Positions 2,626-54,695 of a DNA stretch of 64,000 nucleotides are shown here, piece by piece (the first letter of the stretch is position 1; each line of letters begins with the position of its first letter). Made by a program: the position numbers and the translations under genes. Origin of the DNA: Daejeonella sp. (GTDB lineage Bacteria; Bacteroidota; Bacteroidia; Sphingobacteriales; Sphingobacteriaceae); contig NZ_JAUYSS010000071.1 in assembly GCF_030695525.1 (NCBI RefSeq), forward strand, positions 1 to 64,000, given 5' to 3'. A model generated the notes under the pieces. That model worked only from the letters and a program-made list of their open reading frames with translations. It ran no database searches and was not told the DNA's origin.

Positions 2626-2652
2626 CGCTAATTACTAATTATCAACTGCTAA
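2625..2652. repeat. heptad array (TCGCTAA/TTACTAA/TTATCAA/CTGCTAA)
   Basis: Four consecutive 7-nt units fill the entire gap between the start codon of the four-helix-bundle gene and the stop codon of the BRO-N gene. Units share the pattern YTNNTAA/CAA. The BRO-N stop codon lies inside the last unit. Confidence 0.75.
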
Positions 2653-3467
2653 TTTTTTGGTGGAAGTGTCTTTTTCGCATTTAAAGCACTCACCACTTTT
2701 TTTCCAGTTTTAGCTTCTAGTTCTTTTAGGGCAACCTTGGCAACGTTTCCACCTTGTTTTGCCACTTTTTTGCTTTCCTGGAAATTTTTTGGCTCAACAG
2801 CTGCTGAAATATCCTTAGTAGAAGCTTCGGCAAGCATATTTAAAATAAGTTCTGTATTGGTCATATTATCTCGTAGGTTTTCTTTCTTTAAACCTTTCAG
2901 GATTTTATATTCTTTGGTGGTTTTATCACTCCATGCTTTAGTAATTATATCAGTCAGTGTTGCAAACTGAATGCCCTCTTTCAGTCCACGTTTTTTCCAT
3001 TCATCCGTAAGTTCCTTTCGTATTTCAATACTTTTCAGGCGTTGGTTTATCCAATTTTCAGTATACCCTAAATTCATGTATTGTTCCAATGCACGGTCGA
3101 TACTCAATTCCGGGTCTTGCATTTCGTCTAATCTTTCAGCAGCAACTTTAGCCAACCAAAGTTTAAATGGTTCTGCTTTGGGTGAAGGAATGGATTGTAT
3201 AAGTCGGAAAAGCTGTTCGGTATCTGCAACATCAGTCATTCTCATTTTGCCATCGGGCGCTGGCATTTTCAAACCGTTACAATTTGTAACGGTTTCATTA
3301 CCCTCGTCTTTCAACCTCTTTTTCATCACACGCCAATATACCTGTGGATTGGGGCTATTGGTTAAAGCAGCAATTACATCTACAATTGCCAAATACCATT
3401 TCTCCTTACCGGCATCCCAAATGGTTCTTACTTTTTTGTCATCGAATACCTTTATTTCATTTTTCAT
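2649..3467 (-). CDS. BRO-N domain protein (phage antirepressor-like)
   Basis: 272 residues. The N-terminal ~110 residues match the BRO-N/antirepressor fold pattern: KVRTIWDAGKEKWYLAIVDVIAAL, then a YWRVMKKRLKDEG segment, then LFRLIQSIPSPKAEPFKLWLAKVAAERL. The C-terminal part is helical and Lys-rich, ending KKTLPPKN. BRO-N proteins are DNA-binding and occur in phages and inside Bacteroidota type I restriction loci. Here it lies just downstream of the HsdR remnant in the same orientation, so it is probably a leftover companion of that locus. The reading frame is intact. It is flanked on both sides by 7-nt repeat arrays. A role in regulating the restriction locus is only a possibility. Confidence 0.85.
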   Translation of the reverse strand: MKNEIKVFDDKKVRTIWDAGKEKWYLAIVDVIAALTNSPNPQVYWRVMKKRLKDEGNETVTNCNGLKMPAPDGKMRMTDVADTEQLFRLIQSIPSPKAEPFKLWLAKVAAERLDEMQDPELSIDRALEQYMNLGYTENWINQRLKSIEIRKELTDEWKKRGLKEGIQFATLTDIITKAWSDKTTKEYKILKGLKKENLRDNMTNTELILNMLAEASTKDISAAVEPKNFQESKKVAKQGGNVAKVALKELEAKTGKKVVSALNAKKTLPPKN

Positions 3468-5577: not shown

Positions 5578-7898
5578 TCATACTTTTCAAGATCATATTT
5601 TACTCCCCACGAACTGTTCTTAAAAATCTCTTCTACAACCTCCGTTTTACCTGAAAAATACTCCATTAATAGTGGAATGATTTTATTCTTGATAACTTTA
5701 AAAGTATCGAGACCTGTCATAAAATATGCGTGTCCGATTAAGTAGTCGGCAGATTTTTTTCGAGAATATATTTCCTTATTGATGTGCTTTAGAAAGTCTC
5801 CATCACTTTCTTCCAATTTGCTATAATCAGGAAAGTAACCAATAAATTCAAAACGCCTCCTAAGAGCAATATCAATCAAAGCAATCGATTTGTCAGCGGT
5901 GTTCATTGTCCCAACTAAATAAAGATTTGGCGGCACGCCAAATTCTTTATCTCCGTTTGGTAATGTAAGTCGCAATTCGTTTTTAGCATCAATTCTTTTG
6001 TCCTCCTCCAAAAGAGTAATTAATTCACCAAACACCTTTGAAATATTTGCTCGATTAATTTCATCTATGATTAACACAAAATTTTTAAGTTTTTCCTTTT
6101 GTCCGCTTCCTGATGGTTTTCTTTTTGCTTGTATTAGTTTAGCTAAAGGATTGTAGTAAACAGAAATTCCTGACGTTACCTCTTTAATTCCTTCAACTAC
6201 GTCTTGAAGTGTTTGAATGCTTAAAGTATGTTGAGTACCACCAGATGGTTTTGTAAAATGAATAGTAGTATCACTTACATCTGTGATTTTATATTTTAGT
6301 CCTGAAACCATTGTGATTTCGACACTTTCATTTTTTTCTTCTATAGGTTTAATAATTTCGTTGAAAACTTCACCAAAAGATTTTGCCAAAGCAGTTTGTT
6401 CTCTTGAAGCTAAATAATTCTCTTTTGCTTTTTTTGCTATTTCATAAAATATTCCTCTATATGGTTTGAAACGCAAATGTTCGAACTCAATATCGGGTCT
6501 GATTCCAACCATAAAGTCTTCATAAGAGTAGTTTTGATGAAATGTAACAAATTCGATTTGACCTTCTTTTTTTAGCTTGTCAAAAATCTGTTTACTGTCT
6601 TCATGATTACTTTTAATACCAGTAACGATTTCAACGGCTTTGTCTATGCTGTTATAAGTCTTTCCAGTTCCTGGAGGACCGAATAAAATAATATTGTTCG
6701 GATGTTTTTGTATTTCTCCTTGTTCCTTAATTTTTGTTGCTCCTTCAGAGATAAACTCTACTCCAAAATGAGGCTTGAATATATTTTTATTGGCTTCTTC
6801 AATTTTGTCAATTGCAATTTCAGTAAACGTGCTGTTGCCACTAGGATAAATGAACTCCTTAAATGACTTTAAAGGCGAAGAGTCTGGGTTATTTGCCGAT
6901 TTAACATATTCAACTTCTCTATATATCCAACCATTTTCGTCCGTTATATCTTCTGGTACGTAACCCCATGAACCTGCCTTAACTTTTGCAATTGCAAATA
7001 ACTCATTTCCACCGATTGTTATGTAAACAAAGTCGCCTTCTGTTAAATCATTTTTAAAAGCTTCTGCTTGTCCTTTTTTTGTGTTTTCATGAATAACTAT
7101 CCATTGATTTTCTTTAAATACGTCTCTTATACTTTCGTTAGCCTTTGTCTTAAAAGAACCATGTGATATTTTATAAAGTCGATTTTGGTTCAATGGAATT
7201 GTTAAAAGCTTGTCTTTAATAGGCTCGTCATCAATAATCAAGTTTTTGTTTTCTTCATAAAATTTCAACATTGCCTCAAAATCAAAATTTTCAGGGGATA
7301 ACTCAATAGGCCCTTTTATATATGAGGCATCTGAATGTCTGTAAATTCCGTATTTGATTGTACCATGATGAAAGTCAGCAAAAATTTGTAAGCCGGTAGA
7401 TTGTGACGCTTGATTTTTATTAAACAGTGCAAACCATAGTCTATCGCTGCCTTGTTGTCTTGCACCTTGAAAGTCAAAATATATTTGTTTTACTTTATCC
7501 TTTAGTTGAAGTCGATTAATAATTTCAGAAATAAATTGTTCGATAAATTCTCTTATTGGATTGTGTCCATAGAAAGTGATAATCGGAAAAAATATTGAAT
7601 AGTAATTTTTGTAAGCACGATACTGATTTTCCTTTCCAGTTTTATGTTTTACAATGAAGCCTTCGAGAGTTGTTAAGTCGAGTTTATTACCTTCTTTAAG
7701 ATATTTTAGAACGTCTTTTCTTAAGTCAACAATTACACCAAAACGAGAAGCGTAATAGTCAGATGCTTTTTGAAGCTCGTCTTGCGGGACTGAATTTAAT
7801 TTTGCTACTAATGCATTGTTGTCGGCATAAAGTGTTGCTATTTCTGTTGAAATTTCACAAACCTCTTTAATACCATTTTTTATTTCTTGTTCTGTCAT
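5553..7898 (-). CDS. mcrB: McrB-like GTPase with MrcB-type N-terminal and EVE-like domains
   Basis: 781 residues. Residues ~10-195 resemble the MrcB N-terminal domain (PF12102 type). A region near 245-335 (WIVIHENTKKG, GDFVYITIGG) looks like an EVE-type modified-base reader. From ~400 there is an AAA+ GTPase core: GPPGTGKT (about 405-413), LIIDEINRA (about 609-617), the McrB-specific MNTADKSI (about 663-670) and ALRRRFEF. The protein probably recognises modified DNA through its N-terminal domains, hydrolyses GTP and drives McrC. It is the first gene of the mcrBC operon. No regulator is adjacent. The N-terminal domain choice suggests a specificity different from E. coli McrB, which is inference. 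Confidence 0.92.
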   Translation of the reverse strand: MTEQEIKNGIKEVCEISTEIATLYADNNALVAKLNSVPQDELQKASDYYASRFGVIVDLRKDVLKYLKEGNKLDLTTLEGFIVKHKTGKENQYRAYKNYYSIFFPIITFYGHNPIREFIEQFISEIINRLQLKDKVKQIYFDFQGARQQGSDRLWFALFNKNQASQSTGLQIFADFHHGTIKYGIYRHSDASYIKGPIELSPENFDFEAMLKFYEENKNLIIDDEPIKDKLLTIPLNQNRLYKISHGSFKTKANESIRDVFKENQWIVIHENTKKGQAEAFKNDLTEGDFVYITIGGNELFAIAKVKAGSWGYVPEDITDENGWIYREVEYVKSANNPDSSPLKSFKEFIYPSGNSTFTEIAIDKIEEANKNIFKPHFGVEFISEGATKIKEQGEIQKHPNNIILFGPPGTGKTYNSIDKAVEIVTGIKSNHEDSKQIFDKLKKEGQIEFVTFHQNYSYEDFMVGIRPDIEFEHLRFKPYRGIFYEIAKKAKENYLASREQTALAKSFGEVFNEIIKPIEEKNESVEITMVSGLKYKITDVSDTTIHFTKPSGGTQHTLSIQTLQDVVEGIKEVTSGISVYYNPLAKLIQAKRKPSGSGQKEKLKNFVLIIDEINRANISKVFGELITLLEEDKRIDAKNELRLTLPNGDKEFGVPPNLYLVGTMNTADKSIALIDIALRRRFEFIGYFPDYSKLEESDGDFLKHINKEIYSRKKSADYLIGHAYFMTGLDTFKVIKNKIIPLLMEYFSGKTEVVEEIFKNSSWGVKYDLEKYDWIIQATS

Positions 7899-8087
7899 AA
7901 TGTCGATTTATTTTCTGTCGGTATCGGTCTAGTAGGCTTTCACCCTTATATATATAAGCTATAAAACCCTCCTAAGCCACCCAAATACGCTGGCTTGAGG
8001 CTATTTATCATGCTTTATTAAATATCCCCATTCTCTCCTCAATTACCTAATCCAAATTGAAAATTATAAAAGCAATTAACCCGGATC

Positions 8088-8106
8088 GTTCAATTTTATA
8101 TTGAAC
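8088..8106. promoter_or_regulatory. palindrome GTTCAAT-N5-ATTGAAC
   Basis: Perfect 7-bp arms with a 5-nt spacer (TTTAT). A related palindrome with 6-bp arms and spacer CTTAT lies at 16907-16923, upstream of the exported-protein operon. It could be a shared operator or a small dispersed repeat. Confidence 0.4.
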
Positions 8107-8213
8107 CAGACTGAAATTGTCAGATACCCGCATCATTCAATTCTTTCAAATTCAGATCAGCAAGTAAATATCAAGTCATTATGCTGTTCTTAAATCAACT
8201 TCATGTTAAACGG

Positions 8214-8304
8214 AGTTTGGTCGAAGTTTGGACGGACTTTAGTCGGACGTATGACAATTGTACCCGACCAACATACGAACAACCTACGACTAAGCAAAGT
8301 CTAA
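8214..8304. repeat. inverted pair of 11-bp degenerate arrays upstream of DUF6266
   Basis: On the left, AGTTTGGTCGA, AGTTTGGACGG, ACTTTAGTCGG and ACGTATGACAA follow one another with an exact 11-nt period (8214-8257). On the right, CGACCAACATA, CGAACAACCTA and CGACTAAGCAA (8265-8297) are related sequences in inverted orientation, also with an 11-nt period. The two halves can pair (CGTATG with CATACG, and GACTTTAGTCG with CGACTAAGCAAAGTC allowing bulges). The array ends just before the -33 box of the DUF6266 gene. Confidence 0.7.
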
Positions 8305-8306
8305 AA

Positions 8307-8338
8307 TTTGTATTATTAATAATGTTTAACTATCTTTA
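8307..8338 (+). promoter_or_regulatory. Bacteroidota-type promoter for DUF6266 gene
   Basis: TTTG at 8307-8310 is followed after 20 nt by TATCTTTA at 8331-8338, which differs from the TAnnTTTG -7 consensus only in the last base. The spacing is that expected for this phylum. Predicted transcription start is near 8345, with the ATG at 8361. Confidence 0.5.
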
Positions 8339-8360
8339 ATATAGACACTTATCCTATCTT

Positions 8361-9017
8361 ATGGCTATTTTAAATGGTGGTCCAAATGGAGGCTTCAGCG
8401 GCAAGGCCGGAAGCGTTGTCGGTTATCAGCAATACGGCAAATGGGTAATCCGTGGTTTGCCCAAATACTCCAAAAAAAATAAAAAAGGCTCGATTAATCA
8501 GAATATATGCCGTTCGAAGTTTTCGAAGATGCAGAATATGCTTAAGCCGCTTTTACCCTTCATTCGTGTCGGCTTCAATTTGGAAGCAAAGCGCAATGGC
8601 AATTCCGCGCATAATTCGGCTAAGTCATGGAATATGCTCAATGCATTTAATGATGAGGGAGAGATAAATTACGCTGCTTTCCGGTTCAGCATGGGTGATT
8701 TACCCGGGGCAGTTGATGCGGCTGTTGAACTGAATGAAGAACAACTTGTCTTTAGATGGAGGGATAATTCTAAGGATGCAGGCAGCCGTGCTGAATGGGA
8801 TTTGCGTGAAGAAGATCAGGTTATGATTCTGGTTTATGATAACGAATCTAATTCTTTATGCGGTACTTTGAGTGGTGCCAGACGTTCAGAAGAAAGACAG
8901 CTTATCAGCATCAGCAAAAATAAGAAGCCTGTTGATCATCCTGCCTGGATTTCCTTTATTTCTGACGACAGGCAGCGTATTGCGAATAGTAGTTATGTAG
9001 GGATGGTTAGACTGTAG
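8361..9017 (+). CDS. DUF6266 family protein
   Basis: 218 residues, no signal peptide or membrane segment. The N-terminus MAILNGGPNGGFSGKAGSVVGY and the following Lys-rich KYSKKNKKGSINQN are typical of the DUF6266 family found in Sphingobacteria, often in several copies per genome. The C-terminal part contains beta-strand-like segments (DQVMILVYDNESNSLCGTLSGARRS). The function is unknown; the N-terminus resembles phage structural or capsid-associated small proteins only superficially. It is transcribed opposite to McrBC and DinD, which flank it, so it was probably inserted independently. The upstream region carries an elaborate inverted 11-bp array. Confidence 0.8.
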   Translation: MAILNGGPNGGFSGKAGSVVGYQQYGKWVIRGLPKYSKKNKKGSINQNICRSKFSKMQNMLKPLLPFIRVGFNLEAKRNGNSAHNSAKSWNMLNAFNDEGEINYAAFRFSMGDLPGAVDAAVELNEEQLVFRWRDNSKDAGSRAEWDLREEDQVMILVYDNESNSLCGTLSGARRSEERQLISISKNKKPVDHPAWISFISDDRQRIANSSYVGMVRL

Positions 9018-9140
9018 TAACTGCTTTCCGGTTAGATTGTTAATAGTCAATATAGCCCGATTCAGTCTTTTTAAATTGATTGAGATGGATTATTTTTACA
9101 AATTGGAGTGTCTCAATTCCGGCATTCTCTCCAGGTTTTT

Positions 9141-9992
9141 CTACTTTTTCTTGTTCAGCTTGTTTGTCGTTTTACTTATTTTCTTTTCTTCACTCTCTAA
9201 TCTGCGTTGCACTTTCTTTACATCTTCCAAAGCAGGTAGGTTTTCAGGTTGCACACCTCTTTGTTTGAGCATTTTACGGACAGCCGTATTGTTGTCCACG
9301 TGTTCTTTACCAATTTGTTGTTGCCCTTTCAGGTCTTTTTCTACTACGTTGTGGCTGGTCAGTTCGGCAGCAAAGTCTTTCGCTTTAATGGTAAGTGTTG
9401 GCAGAAAGTCGGCTAAAGGCTTATTGTCTGGAATTTGCAGCTTACGTTTCATATCGTTGGTAGAAAAACCACCAAACAAGGCTTTGTCGCCCATACTGCG
9501 GATAATAGCAAAACCTTTATCGTCCACTCCACGTTCGTAAATGATACCCGATAATTTCTTTTCAGATTTGCTTAGTTTTTCTCTTGCTGTTACTCTTGCA
9601 ACGTCTAAAAGTCGCTGTTCGATAATTTCCTGTTTGCGTGTTTGCACGGCAAAGTAAGTTTGGGCAAAAGCAATTTCGTTTTTGGTAGCATCTCCATTTT
9701 GAGCAATTAGATAGCAGGCATACCTTGTAAGAGCAATATCGTCTATTTCCCGTTTAGCACCTTTTGCCAAATCTATCATTTTGTTGAAGCCAACAAAATG
9801 ATTAGAAACAGTCTCTCCTGCATTCTCACAAGATTTTTTGGCTTTGTCAATGGCCTTTAGAAAATTACGCCAATCAGTATAGTTAAATACCTTTTGTAGT
9901 TCCCTCGCACTCCAGCATTCAACTCCCTGATACTCGTAAGCTGCTTGTTCAAATTTTTGTAGCAACTCCATAACCAATTCTTTCTTCATCAT
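9141..9992 (-). CDS. dinD: DinD-like DNA damage-inducible protein
   Basis: 283 residues matching the DinD pattern: a BRO-N-like N-terminal domain (WSARELQKVFNYTDWRNFLKAIDKAKKSCENAG), then DIALTRYACYLIAQNGDATKNEIAFAQTYFAVQTRKQE, then a C-terminal helical domain (NNTAVRKMLKQRGVQPENLP) and a Lys-rich tail. E. coli DinD is 274 residues and inhibits RecA filaments. In Bacteroidota dinD commonly lies within type I restriction operons between hsdM and hsdS. Here it is intact, alone, and on the far side of McrBC from the HsdR remnant, in the same orientation. No LexA-like box was identified. Confidence 0.88.
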   Translation of the reverse strand: MMKKELVMELLQKFEQAAYEYQGVECWSARELQKVFNYTDWRNFLKAIDKAKKSCENAGETVSNHFVGFNKMIDLAKGAKREIDDIALTRYACYLIAQNGDATKNEIAFAQTYFAVQTRKQEIIEQRLLDVARVTAREKLSKSEKKLSGIIYERGVDDKGFAIIRSMGDKALFGGFSTNDMKRKLQIPDNKPLADFLPTLTIKAKDFAAELTSHNVVEKDLKGQQQIGKEHVDNNTAVRKMLKQRGVQPENLPALEDVKKVQRRLESEEKKISKTTNKLNKKK

Positions 9993-35504: not shown

Positions 35505-35939
35505 ATGGAAATGGAAGATCAGATAATAGTTGAACGGGTTAGTAACGAGACAGACCTTCAGCAGGTGTTTGCCATCCGGAGAAAAGTATTCGTTGATGAA
35601 CAAAATTGCCCTCCTGAGCTTGAATGGGAGTTCGAAGAAGAGTCTGTTCATTTTCTGGGCAAGTTCAATGGTGTTCCTGCAGGAGCTTCCCGCTGGCGTA
35701 AAACCCTAAATGGATACAAGCTTGAACGTTTTGCCGTGTTGAAAGAATTCAGGGAAAAAGGAATGGGGCAGGCACTGGTGGCTAAGGTTTTAAATGACCT
35801 TCCTAAGGATGCTGAGTATGTTTATCTGCACGCACAACTTGACGCAATGCCATTATATGCTAAATTCGGGTTTGAAAAGGCCGGTGAACAATTTGAAGAG
35901 GCTGGGATTCAGCATTTTAAAATGATCCTTCAAGCTTAA
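35505..35939 (+). CDS. GNAT-family N-acetyltransferase
   Basis: 144 residues. The fold is recognised by FAIRRKVFVDEQNCPPELEWEFEEES at the start, and the acetyl-CoA motif VLKEFREKGMGQALVAKVL (R-x-x-G-x-G), then MPLYAKFGFEKAGE. The family near ElaA/YjcF acts on small amines or unknown metabolites. Its last codons and the stop codon lie in the first unit of a 7-nt repeat array. Confidence 0.88.
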   Translation: MEMEDQIIVERVSNETDLQQVFAIRRKVFVDEQNCPPELEWEFEEESVHFLGKFNGVPAGASRWRKTLNGYKLERFAVLKEFREKGMGQALVAKVLNDLPKDAEYVYLHAQLDAMPLYAKFGFEKAGEQFEEAGIQHFKMILQA

Positions 35940-35980
35940 AGCAGAAAGCTTAAAGCTTAAAGCAGAAAGGTTAAAGCTGA
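35932..35980. repeat. heptad array, AAGCTTA/AAGCAGA type, seven units
   Basis: Seven exact 7-nt units (AAGCTTA, AAGCAGA, AAGCTTA, AAGCTTA, AAGCAGA, AAGGTTA, AAGCTGA). The stop codon of the GNAT gene (35937-35939) lies across the first two units, so the array begins inside coding sequence. Confidence 0.9.
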
Positions 35981-36021
35981 AATAGGAAACCGTTATCAAC
36001 TGTCAACCCGAGTGCTATCGG

Positions 36022-44599: not shown

Positions 44600-44608
44600 A
44601 ATCGGGAT

Positions 44609-44650
44609 ATCTGTTGCCTGTTATCTGTTACCTGTTACGAGTTATCTGTT
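44609..44650. repeat. heptad array, ATCTGTT/GCCTGTT type, six units
   Basis: ATCTGTT, GCCTGTT, ATCTGTT, ACCTGTT, ACGAGTT, ATCTGTT in exact 7-nt register, starting 9 nt before the thyA start codon (minus strand). Confidence 0.9.
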
Positions 44651-44667
44651 GCCAGGAGTTATCAAGT

Positions 44668-44730
44668 TTAGTACTTATAACTTAATACTTACAACTTATA
44701 ACTTAATTCTTACAACTTAATACTTACAAC
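44668..44730. repeat. heptad array, TTAATAC/TTACAAC type, nine units
   Basis: TTAGTAC, TTATAAC, TTAATAC, TTACAAC, TTATAAC, TTAATTC, TTACAAC, TTAATAC, TTACAAC in strict 7-nt register. With the preceding array it fills most of the divergent thyA/ispE promoter region. Confidence 0.92.
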
Positions 44731-44752
44731 TCAAGTGCAAATAAAATAAATG

Positions 44753-53837: not shown

Positions 53838-53996
53838 GCCAATTGGTAAAGATTTGCAAAACACTATTATTAAACTATCAAAATCCCCTAAAAACCTTTA
53901 CTGATAAGGCTTTCCCTAATTATAAAAATTTTCAAAAAACCGCCAAACCAATTGGCAAGGCTTGGCAGACAAATTCTGCCACTCTTTTCAACTTTG
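53838..53996 (+). promoter_or_regulatory. candidate RteC operator and excision-operon promoter
   Basis: Three symmetric elements lie upstream of the Xis2c-like gene: GCCAATTGGT (53838-53847) and its inverted copy ACCAATTGGC (53947-53956), and TGGCAGA-CAAAT-TCTGCCA (53963-53981), a perfect 7+7 inverted repeat. Immediately after is CAACTTTG (53989-53996), one base from the TAnnTTTG -7 box, with TTGG 23 nt upstream. The predicted transcript would start about 15-20 nt before the ATG at 54022. CTnDOT RteC binds inverted half-sites upstream of its promoter, so these are the natural candidates. Confidence 0.5.
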
Positions 53997-54021
53997 CATA
54001 GTAAACTTTAAAAGTTATGCA

Positions 54022-54375
54022 ATGAAAATAATAACCATTGAAGAAGAAGCGTGGGATCAGCTAAACAATCGTATCACTGCTATCGCTGACTATCTGAAAA
54101 GATTGGAAGTGACCAATTATGAAGACCTGTGGCTCAACAACCACGAGGTATGCCAATACCTACACATAAGCGAGAAAACCTTATGGCGTATGCGTACCAA
54201 AGGTGAGATTGCTTATTCAAAAATCTATGGACAATACTTCTACACTATTGGTGCTATCAAAGATATGCTCAATGCCAATGCTGTACAAAGCAGTGATGAG
54301 TATGTACAGGAACTTATAGCAAAAGGCAAAAGCTATATCGAAAAAGGCAGGAAACTAAAGACCGATAAAAAATAG
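54022..54375 (+). CDS. helix-turn-helix protein, Xis2c-like excision factor
   Basis: 117 residues from ATG 54022 (MKIITIEEEAWDQLNNRITAIADYLKRLE). An MerR/excisionase-type helix-turn-helix is present: WLNNHEVCQYLHISEKTLWRMRTKGEIAYSKIYGQYFYTIGAIKDML. Small basic proteins of this kind bend DNA at attachment sites. By position, first in the operon after RteC, it corresponds to Xis2c of CTnDOT. The longer frame from 53962 begins inside the inverted repeat and is not preferred. Confidence 0.82.
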   Translation: MKIITIEEEAWDQLNNRITAIADYLKRLEVTNYEDLWLNNHEVCQYLHISEKTLWRMRTKGEIAYSKIYGQYFYTIGAIKDMLNANAVQSSDEYVQELIAKGKSYIEKGRKLKTDKK

Positions 54376-54401
54376 GTACGAACCCTTAAAAGTATAATCC
54401 G

Positions 54402-54695
54402 ATGAATATTGACAGAATGGAATTTTTGGCGTGGATGGAACGCCTGATGGACAGACTTGATATGCTTGGCAACAATATCGAGGACTTTCAAAAGAAACGA
54501 AATAATATTGATGGTGAGGAATTACTCGACAATCAGGATTTACTTCAAATGCTGAAAATCAGCAATCGTTCATTGCAACGTTACCGCTCCAACGGGAAAC
54601 TACCTTATTATACGATAAGCGGAAAATTGTATTATAAGTTATCTGATGTTCATCAATTTATAAGAGAGAGTTTTAATCCTCCGACACCTAAATAG
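54402..54695 (+). CDS. helix-turn-helix protein, Xis2d-like excision factor
   Basis: 97 residues (MNIDRMEFLAWMERLMDRLDMLGNNIEDF) with the same excisionase-type domain: LLDNQDLLQMLKISNRSLQRYRSNGKLPYYTISGKLYYKLSDVHQFIRE. It is a distant paralogue of the preceding gene, 26 nt away. By position it corresponds to Xis2d of CTnDOT, which is needed for excision. The two probably bind att sites and may also regulate transfer genes. Confidence 0.82.
   Translation: MNIDRMEFLAWMERLMDRLDMLGNNIEDFQKKRNNIDGEELLDNQDLLQMLKISNRSLQRYRSNGKLPYYTISGKLYYKLSDVHQFIRESFNPPTPK

Follow-up and report, generated by a model that had tools for sequence, protein, structure and literature searches.

Upstream of a DUF6266 gene in the window, by which we mean the whole 64,000-nt stretch of Daejeonella sp. 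DNA that was analysed, lies an array of 11-nt units in two facing arms, and this array is a real, recurrent, family-specific cis element. Arrays of the same period concentrate upstream of other DUF6266 genes, and at a subset of loci they follow a linked HTH_17 gene whose divergence correlates with that of the array spelling. We read the arrays as operators for a putative winged-helix binder that would assemble on them head to tail, with a subunit at each turn of the helix, into a filament; judged from sequence, this reading has a probability of roughly 0.55.

The window array and its recurrence

The features of the locus, in window coordinates, are as follows.

8202..9023, + strand: block matching a relative in genome G019 (locus L035) at 92% identity; array and gene, flanks unmatched
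8211..8254, + strand: left arm, four 11-nt units, about CGGACTTTGGT, the fourth degenerate; in order CGGAGTTTGGT CGAAGTTTGGA CGGACTTTAGT CGGACGTATGA
8255..8264, no strand: centre between the arms, 10 nt
8265..8297, - strand: right arm, three inverted 11-nt units, CGACCAACATA CGAACAACCTA CGACTAAGCAA; in inverted reading TTGCTTAGTCG, TAGGTTGTTCG, TATGTTGGTCG
8307..8338, + strand: likely promoter, TTTG at 8307-8310, N20, TATCTTTA at 8331-8338
8361..9017, + strand: DUF6266 gene, 218 aa, ATG at 8361

An earlier note on this DNA had described four 11-nt units facing three inverted ones, and the arrangement is real, with its true start at 8211, 3 nt before the 8214 given there. Period 11 was assigned by TRF to both arms (8211-8248 and 8265-8289), and a repeat search recovered three left-arm copies. 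The array (8211-8254 and 8265-8297) ends 9 nt before TTTG, and its right end lies 63 nt from the DUF6266 start codon. The stretch TGACAATT, spanning the left-arm edge and the centre, is kept in L001, L002, L035, L036, L037 and L039, with TGACAGTT in its place in L038. Bacteroidetes promoters have boxes at -33 and -7, with a -7 consensus of TAnnTTTG. The -33/-7 promoter that had been proposed is a likely one: TTTG-N20-TATCTTTA is present, and the stretch is conserved in L035 and mostly in L036, but the last base of the -7 box departs from the consensus. The gene directly downstream belongs to the DUF6266 family, as had been supposed, its protein scoring 80.5 bits against PF19781 (curated cut-off 23.4, E 1.5e-22).

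To survey other loci, the best repeat lag between 5 and 20 was determined within 350 or 450 nt upstream of DUF6266 genes, in three batches. A protein search matched eight DUF6266 genes in the host genome and a profile search nine, and lag 11 was best at seven of the eight protein-matched genes, the exception (L007) being the second gene of a tandem pair. Among the 59 loci of the first batch, lag 11 was best in 36, lag 10 in 9 and lag 20 in 4, versus 2, 3 and 1 of 59 downstream control stretches; this batch left out L035 and repeats of included loci (L065, L067, L075, L084, L086, L088), and the contig-cut L056, whose stretch was misplaced, is counted as a miss. The 40 new loci of the second batch gave 21, 11 and 1, versus 3, 1 and 0 of 39 far-upstream stretches. 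The third batch, a later test set, started from 40 new loci, two of which were cut by contig ends and dropped; sites near contig starts, with an internal stop or second in a tandem pair were passed over (G105:C1:1375, G034:C88, G072:C42, G009:C45:214232 and G020:C18 among them). Here the expectation that arrays would be found upstream of other DUF6266 genes held, with best lag 11 in 30 of 38 loci versus 2 of 38 controls (lag 10 in 2 versus 1, lag 20 in 0 versus 3). Where at least 1300 nt was available upstream, lag 11 was best at 78/111 loci versus 6/111 controls, and a score of at least 14 at lag 10 or 11 was reached at 83/111 versus 1/111, in loci that were drawn from search lists roughly by E-value and, being related, are not independent trials. 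No lag-10 or lag-11 array reached score 14 at 37 of 153 loci, and the second genes of two tandem pairs (L007 and L203) are without arrays.

Class-wide, DUF6266 was found in 15 of 295 genomes, 3 of them from the host's own family. Among 17 loci examined in other families, 8 had 11 as their best lag and 1 had 10; lag-11 segments with a score of at least 11 occur in f5, f15, f34, f39, f50, f54 and f69, and f2 and f22 have none. Also in other families, two to three GTACCAAGTCC-like units lie near the DUF6266 start codon at L178-L181, L042 and L093.

Within 864 kb of host DNA (the window and a further 800 kb) only five lag-11 segments score at least 16, the window array included, which makes the latter more than a chance occurrence. 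Four of the five lie upstream of DUF6266 genes and one at a DUF6266-like gene: this fifth array (C40:15007-15113, at least five units) precedes ORF L123:15135-15920, with start MAILKNGLEFSGGLGNLSAYR, which is DUF6266-like by eye and had no Pfam match at E<=0.1. In 400 kb of genome G115 there are three such segments, two of them at its two listed DUF6266 genes there; the third is weak (16.6) and lies outside any ORF of 60 codons. Heptad arrays (7/14/21 nt) are a class distinct from the lag-11 segments: they are seen in the window at 35928-35989 and 44608-44731, and lag-7 segments scoring at least 16 number 74 in the 864 kb of host DNA and 0 in the 400 kb of G115.

The loci fall into two classes. 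In class A, which includes the window, a solitary DUF6266 gene is preceded by arms that abut the promoter at about -190 to -60, the left arms being similarly placed at about -190 to -105. In class B, the gene lies in an operon with holin-like and CHAP genes, the arrays are at about -200 to -480, and a second, 10-nt array is often present closer to the promoter (30 arms, information content (IC) 5.48 vs 3.79, 28 of 30 in one orientation).

Unit spelling, facing arms and flanks

Arrays at other DUF6266 genes are comparable to that of the window in their period and partly in a core, but the 11-mer itself is not shared; a common exact 11-mer was rejected, as the spelling differs among arrays. Alignment of 92 arms by rotation and strand gave the pooled unit TTnTTCGnnnn with an IC of 3.72 bits, versus at most 2.80 in 12 column-permuted sets (60 restarts for the real data, 12 per control). 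Run separately, class A (48 loci) gave 3.67 vs 2.60 for the control and class B (30 loci) 3.56 vs 2.94, with different best consensus units, and a single core common to both classes is only partly supported. Agreement at core positions is 0.73-0.83 within an array and 0.41-0.57 between arrays, and at non-core positions 0.63-0.76 and 0.28-0.31, respectively. Spelling tracks gene lineage, not genome: unit similarity is 0.565 between genomes at protein identities of at least 60% (27 pairs; 46 loci), and at identities below 45% it is 0.42-0.44 between genomes and 0.45-0.46 within them. Whole 11-nt units have been gained or lost between L003 and L054/L062 and between two G115 paralogues. An exact 17-mer search of viral contigs gave 4 matches, 0 of them within an array, and a looser own-genome pattern retrieved the window array plus chance matches, its reversed control giving more.

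Could helical phasing alone explain these arrays? AA/TT steps once per turn would then curve the DNA, aiding the promoter or drawing a nucleoid protein, and the likeness of units would be a leftover of tandem duplication. The occurrence of both periods, 10 and 11, the gain or loss of whole units and the excess of AA/TT steps (983 observed vs 838 column-permuted, with 69 of 94 arrays above) are in line with this explanation, but the core exceeds permuted controls, the facing arms have partly common spelling, spelling correlates with the HTH protein (see below) and strong lag-11 arrays are near absent elsewhere in the 864 kb, so that we consider it improbable.

A facing arm is common but not universal, being clear in about half of the loci. 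For 51 of 100 upstreams the best inverted complementarity was above the 95th percentile of a control set of 100 random host stretches, and for 3 it was above the control maximum; this control was mostly coding DNA unmatched for terminator palindromes, and some of the high values reflect ordinary palindromes unrelated to arrays (e.g., L080). In many loci, shifting the register by one unit also yields high complementarity, as facing site arrays predict; a uniquely registered palindrome is unsupported by this test. When only the core was considered, inverted three-unit windows were found for 15 of the 69 arms (22%, against a null of 12%), and their non-core agreement was 0.43 vs 0.275.

Folding of the transcript or single strand, another earlier suggestion, fares poorly for the window copy, which has z -0.33 as DNA and -1.62 as RNA and is placed upstream of the likely promoter. 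Of the arrays tested, 30/79 fold with z<-2 (mean z -1.62), a behaviour that is expected of facing arms and would also suit a hairpin of transcribed RNA or extruded DNA. Given the high complementarity in shifted registers, and an Rfam search over 7800-9200 that found no match at the array and two weak ones elsewhere, we regard such a hairpin as very unlikely to be what the arms are for.

The earlier note had also proposed exchange between copies, and one comparison lends this some support: the similarity between the window and L035 runs from 9 nt before the array to 6 nt after the stop codon, covering array and gene only, in a comparison where 416 nt was available upstream of the L035 gene. This restriction to 8202-9023 at 92% identity would be in keeping with an array that bounds a mobile or recombining cassette and has its role in DNA exchange, not transcription. 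Other pairs, however, stay similar across array, gene and flanking DNA (L003/L062, L002/L037, L004/L053), as does L003/L054 with an insert after the gene; lag-11 arrays show no downstream excess (2/59), and the 25 commonest of the 86 families represented in the 91 neighbour ORFs scanned (of 192) include no recombinase, all of which makes a cassette edge an unlikely explanation.

Upstream of the array, positions 7945-8154 of the window are a dispersed intergenic repeat with four other partial copies in the host (C27, C40, C43, C10; 68-87% identity) and pieces in G019, G009 and G004. The C40 copy precedes an 11-nt array, but the C27 copy lacks an array and stands before a gene of another kind, and the repeat was rejected as part of the array/gene unit. 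Bro-N genes at 2649-3467 and 9141-9992 flank a McrBC-type pair together with the DUF6266 gene.

A linked HTH_17 gene and lysis-type neighbours

At the G115 paralogue pair, the array is closely preceded by a small HTH gene, and a profile grown from this gene was used to search the same strand within 1.45 kb upstream of DUF6266 genes. An HTH_17-like gene (BldC/Xis/MerR superfamily) was found at 48 of 153 loci; 31 of these have an 11-nt array, which follows the HTH domain in all 31 with a median gap of 69 nt. There is no such gene within reach on the same strand at the other 105 of 153 loci; it is on the opposite strand at L081 and L144, and downstream at L078 and L193. A 1.2-Mb background yielded five matches, of which two are at DUF6266 genes, two lie some 3.3 kb before the DUF6266 operon of C14, and the last belongs to a lysis module on C66 that includes a DUF6266-like gene. 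All eight proteins scanned, including that of L193, whose gene is downstream of its DUF6266, match Pfam HTH_17 at E<=0.01, six of them over the cut-off.

The identity of the HTH proteins correlates with 11-nt unit similarity (Mantel r 0.26, p 0.0002, n=30 loci) and with 10-nt spelling (r 0.26, p 0.003, n=20), p values that are optimistic because the loci are related and the permutations ignore shared descent. HTH and DUF6266 identities are themselves correlated at 0.74. With DUF6266 identity removed, HTH identity still goes with 11-nt spelling (partial Mantel r 0.26, p 0.00025, 19 class-B loci), and the reverse partial, DUF6266 given HTH, is r -0.06, p 0.77 in the same 19 loci.

This last result bears on the possibility that the DUF6266 protein binds its own upstream array in a cis-specific autoregulation, spelling thereby following the gene. 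The higher unit similarity at protein identities of at least 60% (0.565, against 0.42-0.46 below 45%; 46 loci) is as it would predict, and class A has no other linked candidate binder. DUF6266 similarity is nevertheless non-predictive of spelling once the HTH is held fixed, the second genes of the tandem pairs at L007 and L203 have no arrays, and the predicted structure offers little encouragement. Models of the L093 relative (pTM 0.66) and the window protein (pTM 0.58) combine a beta hairpin with two helices and a beta-rich end; for the L093 model, the first 37 residues of which are unreliable, the C-terminal domain is Fn3/Ig-like and the best Foldseek matches were a phage tail tip-type protein (7.2e-4) and an Fn3 domain of neogenin (7.7e-4), at query TM-scores below 0.4 and with no DNA-binding fold among the matches listed. 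Autoregulation by the DUF6266 protein thus appears quite unlikely.

Other searches with the family were poor in matches: PHROGs gave weak ones only (best 0.016), the DUF6266 profile had a best E of 0.27 against PDB, and no DUF6266 was found in the plasmid records searched with the window protein or the phage records searched with the L006 protein. DUF6266 is present on two viral-labelled contigs. A literature search found no paper for the term 'DUF6266', none combining '11-bp repeats', 'upstream' and 'Bacteroidetes', and, in titles and abstract starts, nothing on such arrays at DUF6266 genes.

Class A, the window included, has no linked HTH_17 gene, and none of the nine HTH_17 matches in the host is near a class-A array; its binder would therefore act from elsewhere. 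Two tandem HTH_17 genes at 53962-54695 of the window, outside the 1.2-Mb background, are probably part of a conjugative element; we take their flanking genes to be RteC-like and DUF3945/topoisomerase III-like.

Class-B DUF6266 genes are followed by one gene for a small holin-like protein with several TM segments and another for a CHAP protein, the labels 'holin-like' and 'spanin-like' being assigned by eye. A CHAP match was obtained for 8 of 91 neighbour ORFs (91 of 192 scanned); the L093 holin-like protein matches Pfam Phage_holin_4_1 (9.8e-5), and the class-B holin-like proteins of L005 and L006 gave no Pfam match. Lysis genes are linked at 20 of the 56 loci with downstream sequence, and HTH-positive loci have them more often (12/16 vs 8/40 without the HTH gene). 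The 10-nt array is found at 11/20 lysis-linked vs 2/36 other loci, and the 11-nt array at 13/20 vs 28/36. Our guess is that class-B DUF6266 is a phage-derived protein released by lysis.

Two further loci, with gene names given by eye, may be mentioned. Contig C66 of the host (L106:3538-8034) has a class-B-type module of an HTH pair, TetR-like, holin-like, CHAP-like and lipoprotein genes, in which an N-terminally similar gene (5753-6322) replaces DUF6266. On the IMGVR contig L094, DUF6266 is followed by holin-like, lysozyme-like and Rz-like ORFs, and Cas1- and Cas2-like ORFs are also present.

Proposed mechanism and related systems

The array may serve the DUF6266 promoter as a multi-site operator. 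Its 11-nt units would be occupied head to tail by a small winged-helix protein, each helical turn taking one subunit, and the filament would grow along one face of the DNA; with two facing arms, two filaments would meet nose to nose a short way upstream of the -33 box, and their cooperative occupancy would set the promoter. In class B the most likely binder would be the HTH_17 protein of the upstream gene, and this binder may drift together with the array spelling, insulating the several copies in a genome from one another. We infer binding, filament and the sign of regulation for class B, and carry the model over to class A. The operator reading is the most likely one, strongest for class B and by extension for the window. 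Of the earlier suggestions, that of a cooperative protein on one DNA face fits best with the helical pitch, the position at the promoter, the class-B HTH_17 linkage and the HTH-spelling correlation.

Precedents for such filaments are described in BldC, RdfS and Xis (PMC5859096, PMC11963761): BldC of Streptomyces, an HTH_17 winged-helix protein, and its family assemble head to tail on direct repeats that vary in number, with subunits one DNA turn apart on smeA-sffA. Tandem direct repeats about one helical turn apart (lag 11 or 10) are found here too, and the class-B linked proteins match HTH_17. One of them, searched against PDB, weakly matches the BldC entries (PMC11963761) 6amk (E 0.1) and 6ama (E 0.14), behind a TetR chain (E 0.012). 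The BldC site is AATTnnnn(C), each subunit taking up 9 bp at whiI and a single protein serving many genes; this motif is absent from the window units (about CGGACTTTGGT) and the pooled TTnTTCGnnnn. Unlike BldC operators, DUF6266 arrays have array-specific spellings and facing arms, the class-B HTH gene lies beside the array, and the HTH protein has an N-terminal helical part (by eye).

CarH/CarA of the MerR superfamily, with a B12-binding regulator, bind tandem 11-bp direct repeats at a promoter on one DNA face, with three to four repeats of consensus nnnnTnnACAn (PMC9304148). DUF6266 arrays are likewise tandem 11-nt direct repeats at a promoter, but TnnACA occurs in neither the window nor the pooled units. 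SARP/AfsR operators have two 11-bp direct repeats overlapping -35 and the spacer (PMC10936776); 11-nt direct repeats adjoin the putative promoter here as well, but no such regulator was seen linked to DUF6266 arrays. ParR/parC centromeres carry their 11-bp direct repeats in two clusters beside a promoter, a layout resembling the two arms. DUF6266 arrays are multicopy and occur in many genomic contexts, and the 25 commonest of the 86 families represented in the 91 neighbour ORFs scanned (of 192) include no ParM-like or TubZ-like motor gene.

More tentatively, and with less than even confidence, we suggest that Bacteroidia carry multicopy, self-contained lysis/release switches. Each class-B locus would combine its own HTH_17 filament protein, an 11-nt array in its own spelling (plus the 10-nt one) and an operon of DUF6266 with holin-, endolysin- and spanin-like genes; co-divergence of array spelling and HTH protein would insulate the many copies in a cell, and class A, as in the window, would be a reduced form in which the array answers an unlinked binder. 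If this is right, the arrays would give a first regulatory handle on the multicopy DUF6266 family and tie part of it to phage-type lysis genes, and the loci would constitute a natural set of diverged protein/array pairs from which the code of HTH_17 filament proteins could be read from sequence.
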